Part shown: positions 19,475-63,885 of the stretch, piece after piece
Position numbering within the stretch: position 1 is the first letter of the stretch
Layout of the letters: the number at the start of each line of letters is the position of its first letter
DNA from: Urechis unicinctus
Lineage: Eukaryota; Annelida; Polychaeta; Xenopneusta; Urechidae
Direction of reading: 5' to 3'
DNA: 64,000 bases
Assembly (NCBI GenBank): GCA_034190875.2
Contig: CM067349.1
Coordinates: 9,485,933-9,549,932 of the forward strand
Position numbers and translations under genes: made by a program
Notes under the pieces: model-generated
Told to the model about the DNA's origin: nothing
Seen by the model: only the letters and a program-made list of their open reading frames with translations
Database searches by the model: none

Positions 19475-20144
19475 TCACTTGACGTTCTCATTTTGGTTTA
19501 CGAAGTTTTTGTCGAGGACGTAGTATTTCCTAGGGTTGGTATAGGTGGAGGAAGAAGACTGACTATTATTGTAGATATCCTCGTCGGTCTGCCGTAACGT
19601 GTCGTCCGACGTGCAGCTCGACGCCGTCGACGGCAGGTGAACCAGGAGAGTGCCCCCAGCCGTCGACACGATTGACCCGGTCATGGCCGAATTAGTCGCC
19701 ATGGGAACAGGGTCAAGCATCATTGTGTTGGCGTATTCCGATTGTGCACTTGTTGTCATGGTGTTGCTTAGGGGTGCCTGGACACTAGCAGGAATAGCGC
19801 TCGTTGGAACTAGAATAGCCGTGGCCCCGGCTGGCTGGGCCCCGGCGGCCATGGCATGGGCGCTCGAAGGCATCGTATTCATACTGGAAGCCATCGTGTT
19901 CGTATTGGAGGCGACATCGGGCAGCGCGCGGTTGAATACTTGGATGCTCTCGTAGGTGGAGTCAGGACGCGTGCCAGCGCTGGTGGCACTTAGGGGACGC
20001 TCCTTCATGCTAGTCGGTGTTAGGTAGAGAGACTCCTCGCGTTTCTTGTCGCGTCGCTTCGTTGTCAGATGTTTTCGGATAATCGTCTGGAACTCGATGG
20101 CTTGCTTCTGTTGCATGAGGATACGCTTACGCTTCAGCGAACTC
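19475..20144 (-). CDS. C2 cytoplasmic exon
   Basis: Enters in phase 2 (CG|G) and ends with TGA at 19475-19477. The tail of about 223 residues is the longest of the three. It starts with a basic stretch (S-S-L-K-R-K-R), then has [12 protein letters not shown] (strict ITIM consensus), [12 protein letters not shown], a Ser/Thr/Ala/Met-rich insert of about 90 residues not seen in C3, I-Y-N-N-S and [13 protein letters not shown] near the end. Y-T-N-P and Y-N-N-S fit the Y-x-N-x consensus for Grb2-type SH2 domains. Confidence 0.88.
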
Positions 20145-22745
20145 CTGCACATACAGGACGTACAGACGGTCAAATCTACACACTACTACACATACAGGAC
20201 GTACAGACGGTCAAATCTACACACTACTACACATACAGGACGTACAGACGGTCAAATCTACACACTACTACACATACTGGACGTACAGACGGTCAAATCT
20301 ACACACTACTACACACACAGGACGTACAGACGGTCAAATCTACACACTACTACACATACAGGACGTACAGACGGTCAAATCACAATCTACAGGACGTACA
20401 GACGGTCAAATCTACACACTACTACATACAGGGACGTACAGACGGTCAAATCTACACACTACTACACATACAGGACGTACAGACGGTCAAACAGACTACT
20501 ACACATACTGGACGTACAGACGGTCACTACACACACTACACATACTGGACGTACAGACGGTCTCATCTACACACTACTACACATACTGGACGTACAGACG
20601 GTCACATCTACACACTACTATACATACAGGACGTACAGACGGTCAAATCTACACACTACTACACATACAGGACGTACAGACGGTCAAATCTACACACTAC
20701 TACACATACTGGACGTACAGACGGTCAAATCTACACACTACTACACATACAGGACGTACAGACGGTCACATCTACACACTACTACACATACTGGACGTAC
20801 AGACGGTCAAATCTATTCACACTACTACACATACAGGACGTACAGACGGTCAAATCTACACACTCCTACAGATACAGGACGTACAGACGGTCAAATCCAC
20901 ACACTACTACACATACTGGACGTACAGACGGTCAAATCTACACACTACTACACATACAGGACGTACAGACGGTCACATCATACTGGACGTACAGACGGTC
21001 AAATCTACACACTACTACACATACAGGACGTACAGACGGTCAAATCTACACACTACTACACATACTGGACGTACAGACGGTCAAATCTACACACTACTAC
21101 ACATACTGGACGTACAGACGGTCAAATTTACACACTCCTACACATACAGGACGTACAGACGGTCAAATCTACACACTACTACACATACTGGCCTATAACA
21201 GATAAAACTCTACTCAATCCAACACATACACTGTATGAGGCGCGACAAATACCAGCATATGCAGATTTTATGGAAATTGAATGCTACAAAACCCAACAAA
21301 CAGGGGACTTAAATAAAATGAAGTGCCGCAGACCCTACATACATCGGAATAAAAAAAAGAGGAAATACTAAAATAACACCTACACGTATAAATATAATTA
21401 AGCATTCTGCTTCAGTGCAAGTGGAACATTCAATTATAACATAACGGGTCAATTATAGCCCCTTTTGGCTGCTTTCGTCAGTTACAGAGATTGTACTTGG
21501 CTTTCTTCCACAAAACACAAGATTATAGCGACGCAGCTTACCGTTTGTAATGGACGACGCCAACTGTGATAATTAGGACTCCGATAAGGAAAGCCAGGGC
21601 TCCGATGATGGCGATGATGATGTCTGCAAACACGTGACCACGCCCAGGTAACAACAATATCATATATATATATATATATATATATATATATATATATATA
21701 TATATATATATATATATATATATATATATATATATATATATATATATATATATATATATATATATATATATATGTACGTATGTATTCTCATCATAGAGAC
21801 TGGTGTTGTGTGTTAAACATACCGTTTGGTAATGTCACTTTCTTAGATTTGGTGACCACACCGGCTTCGTCATTTTCCACGGGAACTACACATCATTGGG
21901 CATGTCATTCATCTGGTCTGGTCACAAATGGACTATGCTTTATTTTGTATAGTTTGCGTTTCGAAACTGTACCAGAGAAATAATATATAAATACTATCTT
22001 TGCACTTACCATCAACGCACTCGCCGAACTGACCGATCCATTTGGAGTTATGACACCTGAGATTCCAGACGGGTCCGCCAGTCAAGCAGCCGATGGTGAC
22101 TTGACTCTGACTGCGGTTCATCCAAGAGCCGGCGGGGGGTACGGGTTCCACACATCCCTGAGCTACAGAAGGCGGGACAGCAGCAAGCGCTGGAGTTAGT
22201 ATGGATAACAAGATCTGTCTTAACAACCACACCAAACCCTGCTGCTTCATGGCTCAAATCAGGCTCAAAATGATAAATACTAGCTGCTAAGGAAATAGCG
22301 GGACATGCTTATTGAGCGATAATTCACGTGGATCAAATGTCATGCGCCATCTAATGATAAACTAGGGCGGGATAAGTACCACTGATGAGGAGGAGATAGC
22401 GCATGTCATCATCCACTGGGTTGAGGTCCATACGGATGCTATTGGAGGTAGATAAGGTCAGCTGGTGTTCCCTCTGTTGACCTCCACAGATATCCTCTCG
22501 TCTGGACGTCCGCTCGTCAGTTACCAGACCATAATTCTTACACCCCGACCGCGGCGACGAGGAAGAAGTCGACGCCCATTTGAAGTCGAGGATGGTGACG
22601 TTGATCTGTTGGCCGGGCTCGGCGAAGAAGCGGAGAGGGCGGACGCCACTGCCGCATGCTGCGATCTGCGCACTCGAGATCTTCAATTCATTCGAGGACA
22701 CCTTGATAGTAGGGAAGTTCTGGCAGAGGTCATTGATGTGGCTTA
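19475..22745 (-). CDS. C2: constant receptor cassette without its own lectin exon
   Basis: Five in-frame exons: 22380-22745 (CUB-like), 22010-22162 (CCP), 21823-21885 (linker), 21542-21623 (transmembrane) and 19475-20144 (cytoplasmic). The first exon begins with a good acceptor (TATTTCAG) in phase 1, which requires an upstream phase 1 donor. Between here and cassette C3 (22746-24165) no lectin or signal-peptide exon exists. All frames and splice sites are intact, so it does not look like a pseudogene. Most likely it is reached by array exons that skip C3; the alternative is a receptor that lost its 5' end recently. Which is true cannot be told from genomic sequence. Confidence 0.8.
20146..21192. 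repeat. 41-bp minisatellite in the C2 TM-tail intron, about 26 copies
   Basis: Unit contains GGACGTACAGACGGTCAAAT and CTACACACTACTAC, with some shortened copies. The 41-bp period gives a 41-residue protein repeat in each frame, producing frames of 378 and 441 codons that are spurious. It begins directly at the acceptor of the C2 cytoplasmic exon. Confidence 0.96.
21542..21623 (-). CDS. C2 transmembrane exon
   Basis: An 82-nt exon, phase 1 in and phase 2 out: [13 protein letters not shown] start, G-V-V-H-Y-K-R end. Hydrophobic span of about 23 residues with a basic stop-transfer end. Donor GTAAGC, acceptor TTGCAG. Confidence 0.9.
21660..21772. repeat. (AT)n microsatellite in a C2 intron
   Basis: About 113 bp of AT dinucleotides between the transmembrane and linker exons. 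C3 has a similar run, but between its linker and CCP exons. Confidence 0.95.
21823..21885 (-). CDS. C2 linker exon
   Basis: A 63-nt symmetric phase 1 exon: V-P-V-E-N-D-E-A ... K-V-T-L-P-N-G. Acceptor TGTGTAG, donor GTATGT. A charged stalk between CCP and membrane. Confidence 0.75.
22010..22162 (-). CDS. C2 CCP/Sushi exon
   Basis: A 153-nt phase 1 exon with four cysteines (Q-G-C-V, I-G-C-L, L-R-C-H, G-E-C-V), S-K-W-I-G before the last Cys and a W-M-N-R-S potential N-glycosylation site shared with C3. Acceptor TTCTGTAG, donor GTAAGT. Confidence 0.88.
22380..22745 (-). CDS. C2 CUB-like exon (cassette entry exon)
   Basis: A 366-nt phase 1 exon starting V-S-H-I-N-D-L-C, with four cysteines and [15 protein letters not shown] in the middle, as in C3. 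It ends L-L-L-I-S-G at donor GTACTT. A TTCATT-rich tract (as read on the gene strand) lies about 115-185 nt upstream of its acceptor. Confidence 0.87.
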
Positions 22746-63034: not shown

Positions 63035-63384
63035 ACTGCAAAATGAATTAGTTGAAGCTAGGCGTTCAAACAGTAAGTGAGTGAAAATACCGTACTGCTC
63101 CAATAATATTCTGTTATCAGGAAATATTATGACGCCCATGATACGGAATCAACTCTTGAGACAGTCAAATGACCTTGATTGAAAACATATACAAAATGCT
63201 CAGCCTGGTTTTACAAGTAATATGGGTGGTACGTAGCTTTGGTTCAGACAAGACATATGAATGGTTGAATGAATCATTGAAAGAATGAATAAATGATTGT
63301 GTGAATAAATAAACGGATATATGAATGAAGAAAGGAAGTGAAATAAAAAAATGAATGGTAAAAGACCAACCCAGACCATCATAC

Positions 63385-63885
63385 CTGCAATACATGAATA
63401 TGAAACATCAAAGTAGCTAGCAGTTTGTCTGAAGCAGTCATCAGTGGCCTTGAAGAGGGCGTTTGGTATCTGCACCTCACACTGCCTACGACCGGAACAT
63501 ATCCCGTCAGATATCCCCAGCACATCACGCACACAGTCCGAATAATCCTCGTCCAGATTAAAGCACCTGTTTGGTGCTACCTGTCCGTACCTGGCGGAGG
63601 TGATGAATATGACGGCGTTAACATCACACCGGGGACTGAAGCGATCCAGCTGACAGATCTGATGCCCAGTCCCTATAATAAACAATGCACTGCTGATTCA
63701 CGACGGAAATACGGTATATACCACAGTTTATACCACAGTATATATCACAGTACGACTGCTACGGAATGGACTACTAAAGATGAAGCAATGAAGGCAGTCC
63801 TACCCTGACTGTGATATCCGCTGGTTGTATTCACCACACAGATGACATAGACTAATACTAACAACGCACGGTGTATACAGGCCAT
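63385..63885 (-). CDS. U39: variable lectin unit at the window edge
   Basis: Exon 1 63804-63885 (ATG 63885, 27 codons, start M-A-C-I-H-R-A, end S-G-Y-H-S-Q-G). Exon 2 63385-63672, 288 nt, eight cysteines, Y-G-Q-V-A-P-N, start G-T-G-H-Q-I-C. Its 24-bp element is expected around 63995-64085 and is not visible before the window ends, so the array very likely continues to the right. A TTCATT-rich tract follows the donor at about 63250-63350. Confidence 0.88.

Follow-up and report, generated by a model that had tools for sequence, protein, structure and literature searches.

A putative variable-first-exon cluster of SUEL-lectin receptors in the annelid Urechis unicinctus

Variable-first-exon systems and the Urechis locus

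Receptor diversity generated by variable first exons has been studied best in neuronal identity, in the protocadherins of vertebrates and the sDscam genes of chelicerates. In the clustered protocadherins, tandem variable first exons are joined to common exons, and the same is described for UGT1 (PMC1885805). The sDscam genes, as reported in PMC4835542, carry tandem 5′ cassettes of two or four exons, each with a promoter in front of it and spliced to exons of a constant 3′ part. Of 264 junctions, 249 linked neighboring exons inside one cassette; exons of different cassettes were combined in some isoforms, and a cassette lying downstream of an active promoter can also splice to the constant exon. 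Here we describe a locus of SUEL-type lectin domains in Urechis unicinctus that may follow a similar logic. The DNA analyzed, referred to as the window, is 64 kb long (C8:9485933-9549932, in a genome of 1.19 Gb), and positions without a prefix are window positions. With a probability of roughly 85%, the locus represents a cluster of variable first exons for single-pass lectin receptors, in which alternative promoters would be combined with splicing of each lectin “head” to a shared “body”. This one locus could probably yield ~100 different sugar-sensing receptors.

Lectins were located by a six-frame search of the window with an iterated lectin profile, bodies were located exon by exon, and the search was widened by 200 kb of flanking DNA of the same chromosome (12.5 kb of it N). 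The window holds 39 tandem SUEL-lectin copies, all on the minus strand, from U1 (26764..27039, a degenerate copy with neither donor nor upstream element) to U39 (63385..63885); a preliminary description of this DNA had likewise counted 39 tandem same-strand units. These copies belong to array A, which comprises 52 in full, with U40-U52 reaching 14 kb past the window end, and which terminates at two bodies, C3 and C2. Past array A, on the same strand, come two single genes and then modules B (27 lectins), C (13) and D (30). The 70 copies of these modules lie in tandem within ~66 kb, each module before one body of its own with CUB-like, CCP-like, transmembrane and tail parts.

How does this arrangement compare with the described systems? 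The likeness to protocadherins drawn in the preliminary description holds for the variable-first-exon kind. However, the array-A units have two exons and an acceptor at the lectin exon, so the sDscam cassettes are the closer precedent. As in sDscam, two-exon units stand in tandem before constant exons, and sDscam genes are themselves clustered in some species (PMC4835542). The differences are that the domain is a SUEL lectin rather than an immunoglobulin domain, that the animal is an annelid rather than an arthropod, and that most heads of modules B-D have one exon. In addition, sDscam is backed by RNA-seq and reporter assays (PMC4835542), whereas the reading of the Urechis locus is a prediction from sequence. 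Modules B-D resemble UGT1 in that the variable exon holds both the signal peptide and the recognition domain (PMC1885805). Unlike both protocadherins and UGT1, the locus has no cadherin or glycosyltransferase domain, offers array A two alternative bodies and combines four modules in one superlocus. Pfam recognized no cadherin repeats in three models scanned, and no immunoglobulin domains in the same models at E-values up to 5. The Pfam “Protocadherin” model gave a sub-threshold match to C2 (E-value 0.012, 16.1 bits vs. a cut-off of 26.3) over residues 170-285, approximately the stalk, the transmembrane segment and the start of the tail.

The view that no such arrangement has been described for SUEL lectins is uncontradicted by the open-access literature searched, yet the receptor type already carries a deposited name (see below). 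No description of SUEL first-exon arrays was found in titles and abstract openings of open-license PMC literature, subscription literature being outside the scope. Polymorphic transmembrane clusters in the snail Biomphalaria are gene clusters tied to parasite resistance, and the account in PMC7494358, in the parts drawn on here, makes no mention of a shared-body first-exon array. A survey of immune genes in Aplysia counts three SUEL lectins (PMC9334734). Thus, the type of mechanism is known from protocadherins, UGT1 and sDscam and the type of receptor has a name, while the lectin-receptor instance appears to be new. The variable-first-exon principle seems to have evolved on its own in a lectin receptor, in four adjacent modules and with a large head-to-body ratio.

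Heads, bodies and their predicted junction

A typical array-A unit consists of an upstream element, an exon for the signal peptide that closes in phase 1, an intron (median 110 nucleotides, nt) and a lectin exon with phase-1 sites at both ends; the median pitch for U2-U52 is ~950 bp. Thirty-four of the 39 window lectin exons combine an open frame, a length divisible by three and a donor. A permissive search assigns a separate phase-1 signal exon to 33 of these, in line with the “about 33” complete units of the preliminary description, and U3 has its signal peptide and lectin fused. Over the full array, 47 of 52 lectin exons are intact. The permissive search finds a signal exon for 50 of the 51 heads U2-U52, a figure inflated by best-of-many choices; a strict test finds one upstream of 38/51, compared with 3/51 equal-length downstream stretches and 0/51 antisense. 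In modules B-D, the signal peptide shares one frame, and apparently one exon, with the lectin in 63 of 70 copies, and 66 of 70 have a donor. The donor GT stands at the exact expected place in 51/52 copies of A, 25/27 of B, 12/13 of C and 29/30 of D, so that 117 of 122 copies bear a donor for five bodies. The head exon ends (43732, 49557 and 57070) and body exon starts (26297 and 22745) predicted earlier proved exact.

The heads are recognizable as lectins by several methods. Pfam PF02140 matches the U3 frame with an E-value of 1.3e-7; U3 and C1, a single-lectin paralogue, are above the cut-off and U36 is just below it (31.0 vs. 31.4 bits). The best PDB match of a 15-row lectin profile is the L-rhamnose-binding lectin 5h4s (E-value 2.2e-20), and the PDB-profile search relates the domain to rhamnose-binding lectins and latrophilins. 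YGR is the sugar-contacting motif of SUEL lectins. Its R is present in all 64 intact B-D heads examined, compared with 14 of 48 in array A, where Q (19) and H (7) also occur. Array-A specificity may therefore have shifted, since the R is replaced by Q or H in 26 of 48 heads.

Conservation among the heads ends at the donor. Across arrays, each of the last 30 exon columns holds on average 0.9-1.1 bits, compared with ~0.1-0.3 from position +7. For array A, the values are 0.94 over the final 30 exon columns, 1.5 at +3 and ~0.1 beyond intron position +6. The profile took donor-bearing units alone, so GT scores 2.0 bits by selection, and the near copies U10 and U11 were also excluded. The lack of conserved sequence past the donors, noted in the preliminary description, is borne out by this profile. 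Median ratios of nonsynonymous to synonymous change (dN/dS) are 0.25 for A (84 pairs), 0.23 for B (103), 0.35 for C (11) and 0.35 for D (53), and no single pair within the dS range used exceeds 1. These are Nei-Gojobori estimates over non-independent pairs with an uncorrected synonymous difference below 0.72, with medians taken over dS 0.1-1.5; the near-identical pair B05/B10 falls outside this range (dN 0.022, dS 0.019). As judged from these sequence comparisons, the heads are under purifying selection, and their conservation ends at the splice donor. The same 130 lectins (48 A, 23 B, 13 C, 28 D and 18 single, with broken frames and split hits excluded) were placed in a midpoint-rooted tree, in which array A forms one clade of 48 members (support 0.88) and the C1 lectin joins next (0.93). 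Because of this grouping, the ancestor of array A is likely to have been a C1-like gene.

The upstream element of array A differs from that of modules B-D. In array A, it is TTAACA-N11-CAGTGC, with ~29 conserved bases in surroundings without conservation, and its spacing is fixed in 51/51 units (U2-U52). The exact pattern TTAACANTTN7ACAGTGC has 43 matches in 1.19 Gb, 39 at array-A units and 4 elsewhere, and a reversed control has 3. No lectin or body match was found within the 5 kb retrieved around one of the outside copies (contig C841). The element thus looks private to the locus and promoter-like, and it is predicted to act as a promoter. In modules B-D, 68 of 70 copies are preceded by another element, GAGCCTC, which sits in a short stretch of conserved bases; its analysis used the 61 unique copies among these 68. 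The array-A element (at 28685 and other sites) ends in CACAGTGC in 33/51 units and so resembles the heptamer of a recombination signal sequence (RSS). An RSS of the V(D)J type was rejected: the heptamer-like end is variable, with C before ACAGTG in 35/51, and no nonamer or further conserved block follows. A private element of ~29 bases would be a ready handle on the choice of head.

What lies downstream of the heads? Bodies C3 and C2 each consist of a CUB-like, a CCP-like, a stalk and a transmembrane exon and a tail exon with a stop, and the phases run 1-1-1-1-2 from the lectin donor. In the exon models, all on the minus strand, C3 comprises the CUB-like exon 25938..26297 and the CCP-like exon 25663..25818 (both colinear with the deposited protein P0002, discussed below), the stalk exon 25293..25367, the transmembrane exon 25050..25131 and the cytoplasmic tail exon 24166..24604. 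C2 comprises the CUB-like exon 22380..22745, the CCP-like exon 22010..22162 (neither with a Pfam match), the stalk exon 21823..21885, the transmembrane exon 21542..21623 and the cytoplasmic tail exon 19475..20144. The last four are matched by P0001, a deposited protein from a JGI contig of 1725 bp whose RNA origin is not established, which agrees with the C2 joins CCP|stalk|transmembrane|tail at 80% identity over 299 columns. C1 (3412..13050, minus strand) has the make-up of an ordinary gene: signal exon 13050-12963, lectin 12053-11775, CUB-like 11511-11146, CCP-like 9973-9821, transmembrane 4951-4870 and tail 3967-3412. Its phases match wherever exons were joined; exon modeling did not locate a stalk exon. 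Acceptors of CUB-like exons, those of C3 and C2 included, read CAG|T in 6/6, with phase-1 joins where translated (C3, C2, C1 and C). The translated tails contain tyrosine motifs, for example STYESI, YMMP and YNNT, which may serve SH2-type signaling. A 26-copy, 41-bp minisatellite (20141-21188) occupies most of the intron between the C2 transmembrane and tail exons, and long AT repeats lie in the C2 stalk-transmembrane intron (21657-21773) and the C3 CCP-stalk intron (25486-25645).

Is C2 served by the same heads as C3? A first exon of its own was sought in the 1420 bp between the two bodies and rejected, there being no element and no strict signal exon, although the same test finds just 38/51 units. 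With no recognizable head in this gap, splicing to C2 probably bypasses the C3 exons, and C2 would then be an alternative body for the same heads.

The strongest outside evidence that heads and bodies belong together in one protein comes from another annelid. P0002, deposited for the lugworm Arenicola marina under the name “Gal-binding and CUB domains containing receptor 14”, was the lone match of a search with the module-C join C01+C, with which it is colinear into the transmembrane segment (33% over 313 columns). Against U36+C3, the alignment is unbroken across head, CUB and CCP (32% over 281 columns), and against U36+C2 it is unbroken across the head-CUB junction (31% over 272 columns). The order of signal peptide, SUEL lectin, CUB-like, CCP-like, transmembrane and tail parts is identical to that predicted for Urechis. 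In contrast, identity is limited to 31-33% and the alignments stop short of the tails. The assembled SUEL-CUB-CCP-transmembrane architecture thus exists, at the level of sequence, as one deposited protein; this bears on the architecture and not on the choice of head in Urechis.

Modules B-D repeat the pattern, with CUB-like, CCP-like, transmembrane and tail frames in each body. The tails of B and D are 92% and 90% identical to that of C, and of the four matches to a genome search with the C tail, three are these bodies and the fourth is a 43% relative next to a single gene. In module C, 95 nt separate the donor of the proximal head from the CUB acceptor, so this head and body C together form an ordinary complete gene; in the remaining module-C heads, the promoter region and first exon of this gene recur. 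Hence, the proposal of the preliminary description, variable lectin heads on shared CUB-CCP-transmembrane-tail bodies, draws support from the exon order of C1, the CCP-like and transmembrane matches that follow most of the neighboring single copies, the colinearity of P0002, modules B-D, the private element and the constraint up to the donor, while use of C2 enters it as a prediction.

How might such a locus work? The units, the phases, the conserved elements, the bodies, the purifying selection, the four-fold module and the natural protein colinear across the junction can all be read from sequence. Each head would bring a promoter-like element of its own together with a signal peptide and a single SUEL-type lectin ending in a phase-1 5′ splice site. 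Transcription would begin at one chosen head, and in array A the signal exon would be joined to its own lectin over the short intron. The lectin donor would then be spliced in cis, past any intervening heads, to the phase-1 acceptor of the shared CUB-like exon. The product would be head, CUB-like, CCP-like, (stalk), transmembrane and tail. Array A would offer 47 lectin exons for this choice, the intact ones of its 52 (34 of them in the window), together with two alternative bodies, C3 and then C2. Modules B, C and D, upstream, would operate alike with mostly one-exon heads and a single body each. For most B-D heads, no special skipping would be needed, because the downstream heads show no fixed acceptor. 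One head per transcript is what we infer as the usual outcome, but a single promoter does not necessarily imply a single head, since sDscam cassettes downstream of an active promoter can join the constant exon.

What would be the functional implications? First, if the proposed joining is real, one locus would provide an animal with a large repertoire of glycan receptors and allow a direct test of clonal receptor expression by invertebrate blood cells; the receptors may have a role in immune or self/non-self glycan recognition. Second, a more speculative possibility, which we consider doubtful, is that promoter choice governs an invertebrate receptor repertoire here, in which each cell, for example each hemocyte, commits to one or a few of the ~100 heads through array-private promoter codes, with array A also switching between C3 and C2 under the same head in the manner of isotypes. 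In that case, sugar-recognition diversity would be spread across cells without DNA rearrangement.

Evidence against the cluster and competing explanations

Several observations weigh against a cluster of heads joined to shared bodies. The CUB-like and CCP-like exons were not recognized by Pfam even at an E-value of 5 in the three models scanned, so their names are descriptive, and a CUB-like structure model from three sequences has a mean predicted local distance difference test (pLDDT) score of 73. A protein-database search with a 9-row alignment (C1 and eight joins of array-A heads to C2 or C3) gave no match to an array-A head joined to a C2 or C3 CUB at an E-value of 1e-3 among 2081 candidates. 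No spliced retrocopies were among the 92 genome matches listed, for which 88 of 405 candidates were scored. Some units are broken: the lectin exons of U7, U10, U11 and U35 are frameshifted. U10 and U11 differ by single bases from their near copies U12 and U9, and these two frameshifts could be assembly errors.

A further difficulty is that array-A lectin exons have acceptors of their own, so the skipping of downstream heads must be enforced somehow. Of 50 such acceptors, 31 are TAG, 17 CAG and 2 AAG, whereas the CUB-like acceptors are CAG in 6/6. Acceptor strength was rejected as the cause of skipping: pyrimidine content shows no clear difference, at 0.66 for array-A lectin exons, 0.62 for body exons and 0.62-0.77 for CUB-like exons, and just the −3 base differs. 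The conservation profile likewise offers no docking-site candidate, there being no conserved sequence after the donors. Could transcripts from distal promoters instead take in several or all of the downstream lectin exons, giving multi-lectin receptors of variable length? In array A, the splice sites on both sides of the lectin exons are preserved, the intact exons are 1-1 phase cassettes, and tandem SUEL domains occur in nature (5h4s has three matched stretches). Such chains are unlikely for U3 and for most B-D heads, which read from signal peptide to lectin in one frame with no acceptor at a constant position. Some cryptic acceptors are possible in B-D, because acceptor-like AGs are somewhat more frequent than in shuffles, though at no fixed position: in the 65 of 70 copies used, phase-compatible acceptor-like AGs occur near the signal-lectin boundary in 18 vs. 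10 ± 3 in shuffles (36/50 at array-A acceptors), and any in-phase AG occurs in 48 vs. 40 ± 4. In addition, any longer transcript that took in the frameshifted U7, U10, U11 or U35 would be disrupted, but the heads upstream of these units remain under constraint, and C1 and P0002 each have a single lectin. Chains are thus an improbable explanation, although the least improbable of the alternatives.

Very little likelihood attaches to the idea that each unit is a small soluble-lectin gene of its own, in which transcription ends past the lectin exon and translation stops in retained sequence. Soluble SUEL lectins have been described from marine animals, and the reading frame does close a short way past the donor (median 13 codons, range 1-107, in 113 units). 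The in-frame reading past the donor is longer than that in the other two frames (median 13 vs. 5 codons), another point that counts against joining to a body; this is partly because GTAG and GTAA donors carry a stop in another frame. However, nothing past the donor is conserved while the donor GT is kept in 117/122 copies, and the paralogues C1 and P0002 continue into CUB. Poly(A) hexamers are also not enriched between array-A units, with 6 in 50 intervals compared with 9.8 ± 3.0 in resampled sequence; this is a weak test, as a 900-nt range around the stops of C2, C1, B and C likewise lacks the hexamer.

It is similarly hard to sustain that the head adjacent to each body is alone a working gene, while the distal ones are remnants or a store of sequence for gene conversion. 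The complete gene at the proximal end of module C fits this explanation, as do neighbors homogenized by block duplications. The distal heads, however, retain frames, signal peptides, donors and elements as well as the low dN/dS medians (0.23-0.35), and the array-A copy nearest a body, U1, is the very one without a donor and an element. Trans-splicing of separately transcribed heads to bodies is scarcely credible either, because same-strand colinearity with bodies 3′ of the heads in all four modules fits cis-splicing.

Positions of the heads and other lectin copies

The intact heads of the window are given here, all on the minus strand, as the span of the unit followed in parentheses by the element, the signal exon and the lectin exon. 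Nearest the bodies are U2 at 27942..28685 (28685; 28463-28373; 28229-27942) and the one-exon head U3 at 29294..29814 (element 29814; donor after 29294), followed by U4 at 30154..30806 (30806; 30640-30559; 30444-30154), U5 at 31247..31917 (31917; 31770-31674; 31534-31247) and U6 at 32139..32810 (32810; 32654-32573; 32429-32139). The frameshifted U7 (33095..33716) has a lectin exon of 293 nt. Next are U8 at 33997..34650 (34650; 34485-34392; 34290-33997), U9 at 35111..35803 (35803; 35644-35554; 35407-35111), U10 at 36107..36753 and U11 at 37213..37906, these last two each with a 1-bp indel in the lectin exon, and U12 at 38209..38856 (38856; 38695-38602; 38502-38209). A recent block duplication spans 34000-38860, where U9/U11 and U10/U12 are nearly identical and U8 is related.

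The series continues with U13 at 39305..39979 (39979; 39794-39707; 39592-39305), U14 at 40164..40843 (40843; near 40651, end uncertain; 40445-40164), U15 at 40991..41733 (41733; 41527-41464; 41281-40991), U16 at 42023..42644 (42644; 42487-42409; 42310-42023), U17 at 42807..43515 (43515; 43367-43271; 43091-42807), U18 at 43732..44376 (44376; 44200-44125; 44019-43732), U19 at 44679..45326 (45326; 45157-45079; 44966-44679) and U20 at 45546..46225 (46225; 46066-45982; 45833-45546). Beyond these are U21 at 46500..47162 (47162; 46985-46892; 46784-46500), U22 at 47422..48047 (48047; 47889-47817; 47709-47422), U23 at 48471..49095 (49095; 48947-48863; 48758-48471), U24 at 49557..50198 (50198; 50031-49950; 49844-49557), U25 at 50615..51263 (51263; 51078-51018; 50902-50615), U26 at 51676..52332 (52332; 52162-52072; 51963-51676), U27 at 52573..53175 (53175; 53057-52964; 52860-52573), U28 at 53433..54077 (54077; 53897-53819; 53717-53433), U29 at 54357..54980 (54980; 54829-54745; 54644-54357) and U30 at 55263..55867 (55867; 55730-55652; 55550-55263).

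Toward the window end lie U31 at 56173..56804 (56804; 56613-56562; 56460-56173), U32 at 57070..57703 (57703; 57539-57449; 57357-57070), U33 at 57999..58634 (58634; 58491-58395; 58286-57999), U34 at 58793..59412 (59412; ending at 59178, start uncertain; 59080-58793) and the frameshifted U35 at 59762..60362, with a lectin exon of 287 nt. The last four are U36 at 60701..61304 (61304; ending at 61080, start uncertain; 60988-60701), U37 at 61508..62147 (62147; 61996-61909; 61795-61508), U38 at 62383..63033 (63033; 62903-62813; 62670-62383) and U39 (signal exon 63885-63804; lectin exon 63672-63385), whose element lies just beyond the window end. In array B, a five-unit block is present three times (C8:9593213-9603889), and several copies have a synonymous distance near zero.

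Lectin copies also occur singly. Thirteen (9 plus, 4 minus) lie at C8:9413557-9480634, a region partly broken by runs of N. They have 12 CCP-like and 10 transmembrane matches in fitting orientation in their neighborhood, and the CUB profile matched just 1. A single-frame fusion of lectin, CUB and CCP on C838 and at C8:9448460 was considered and rejected, as lectin and CCP are not in one open frame. A second cluster at C8:47.70-47.87 Mb has ~20 SUEL matches on both strands with single-gene-like spacing; the open frame of 1985 residues around one lectin there (C8:47.706 Mb) is artefactual and stems from a run of N. On another chromosome, a lectin at C17:57218563-57218847 is followed by CUB-like and CCP-like frames; its 49% identity to U36 is the highest outside array A among the matches listed. 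Finally, a tRNA-Ala (AGC) gene lies on the plus strand at 17221-17295, between C2 and C1.

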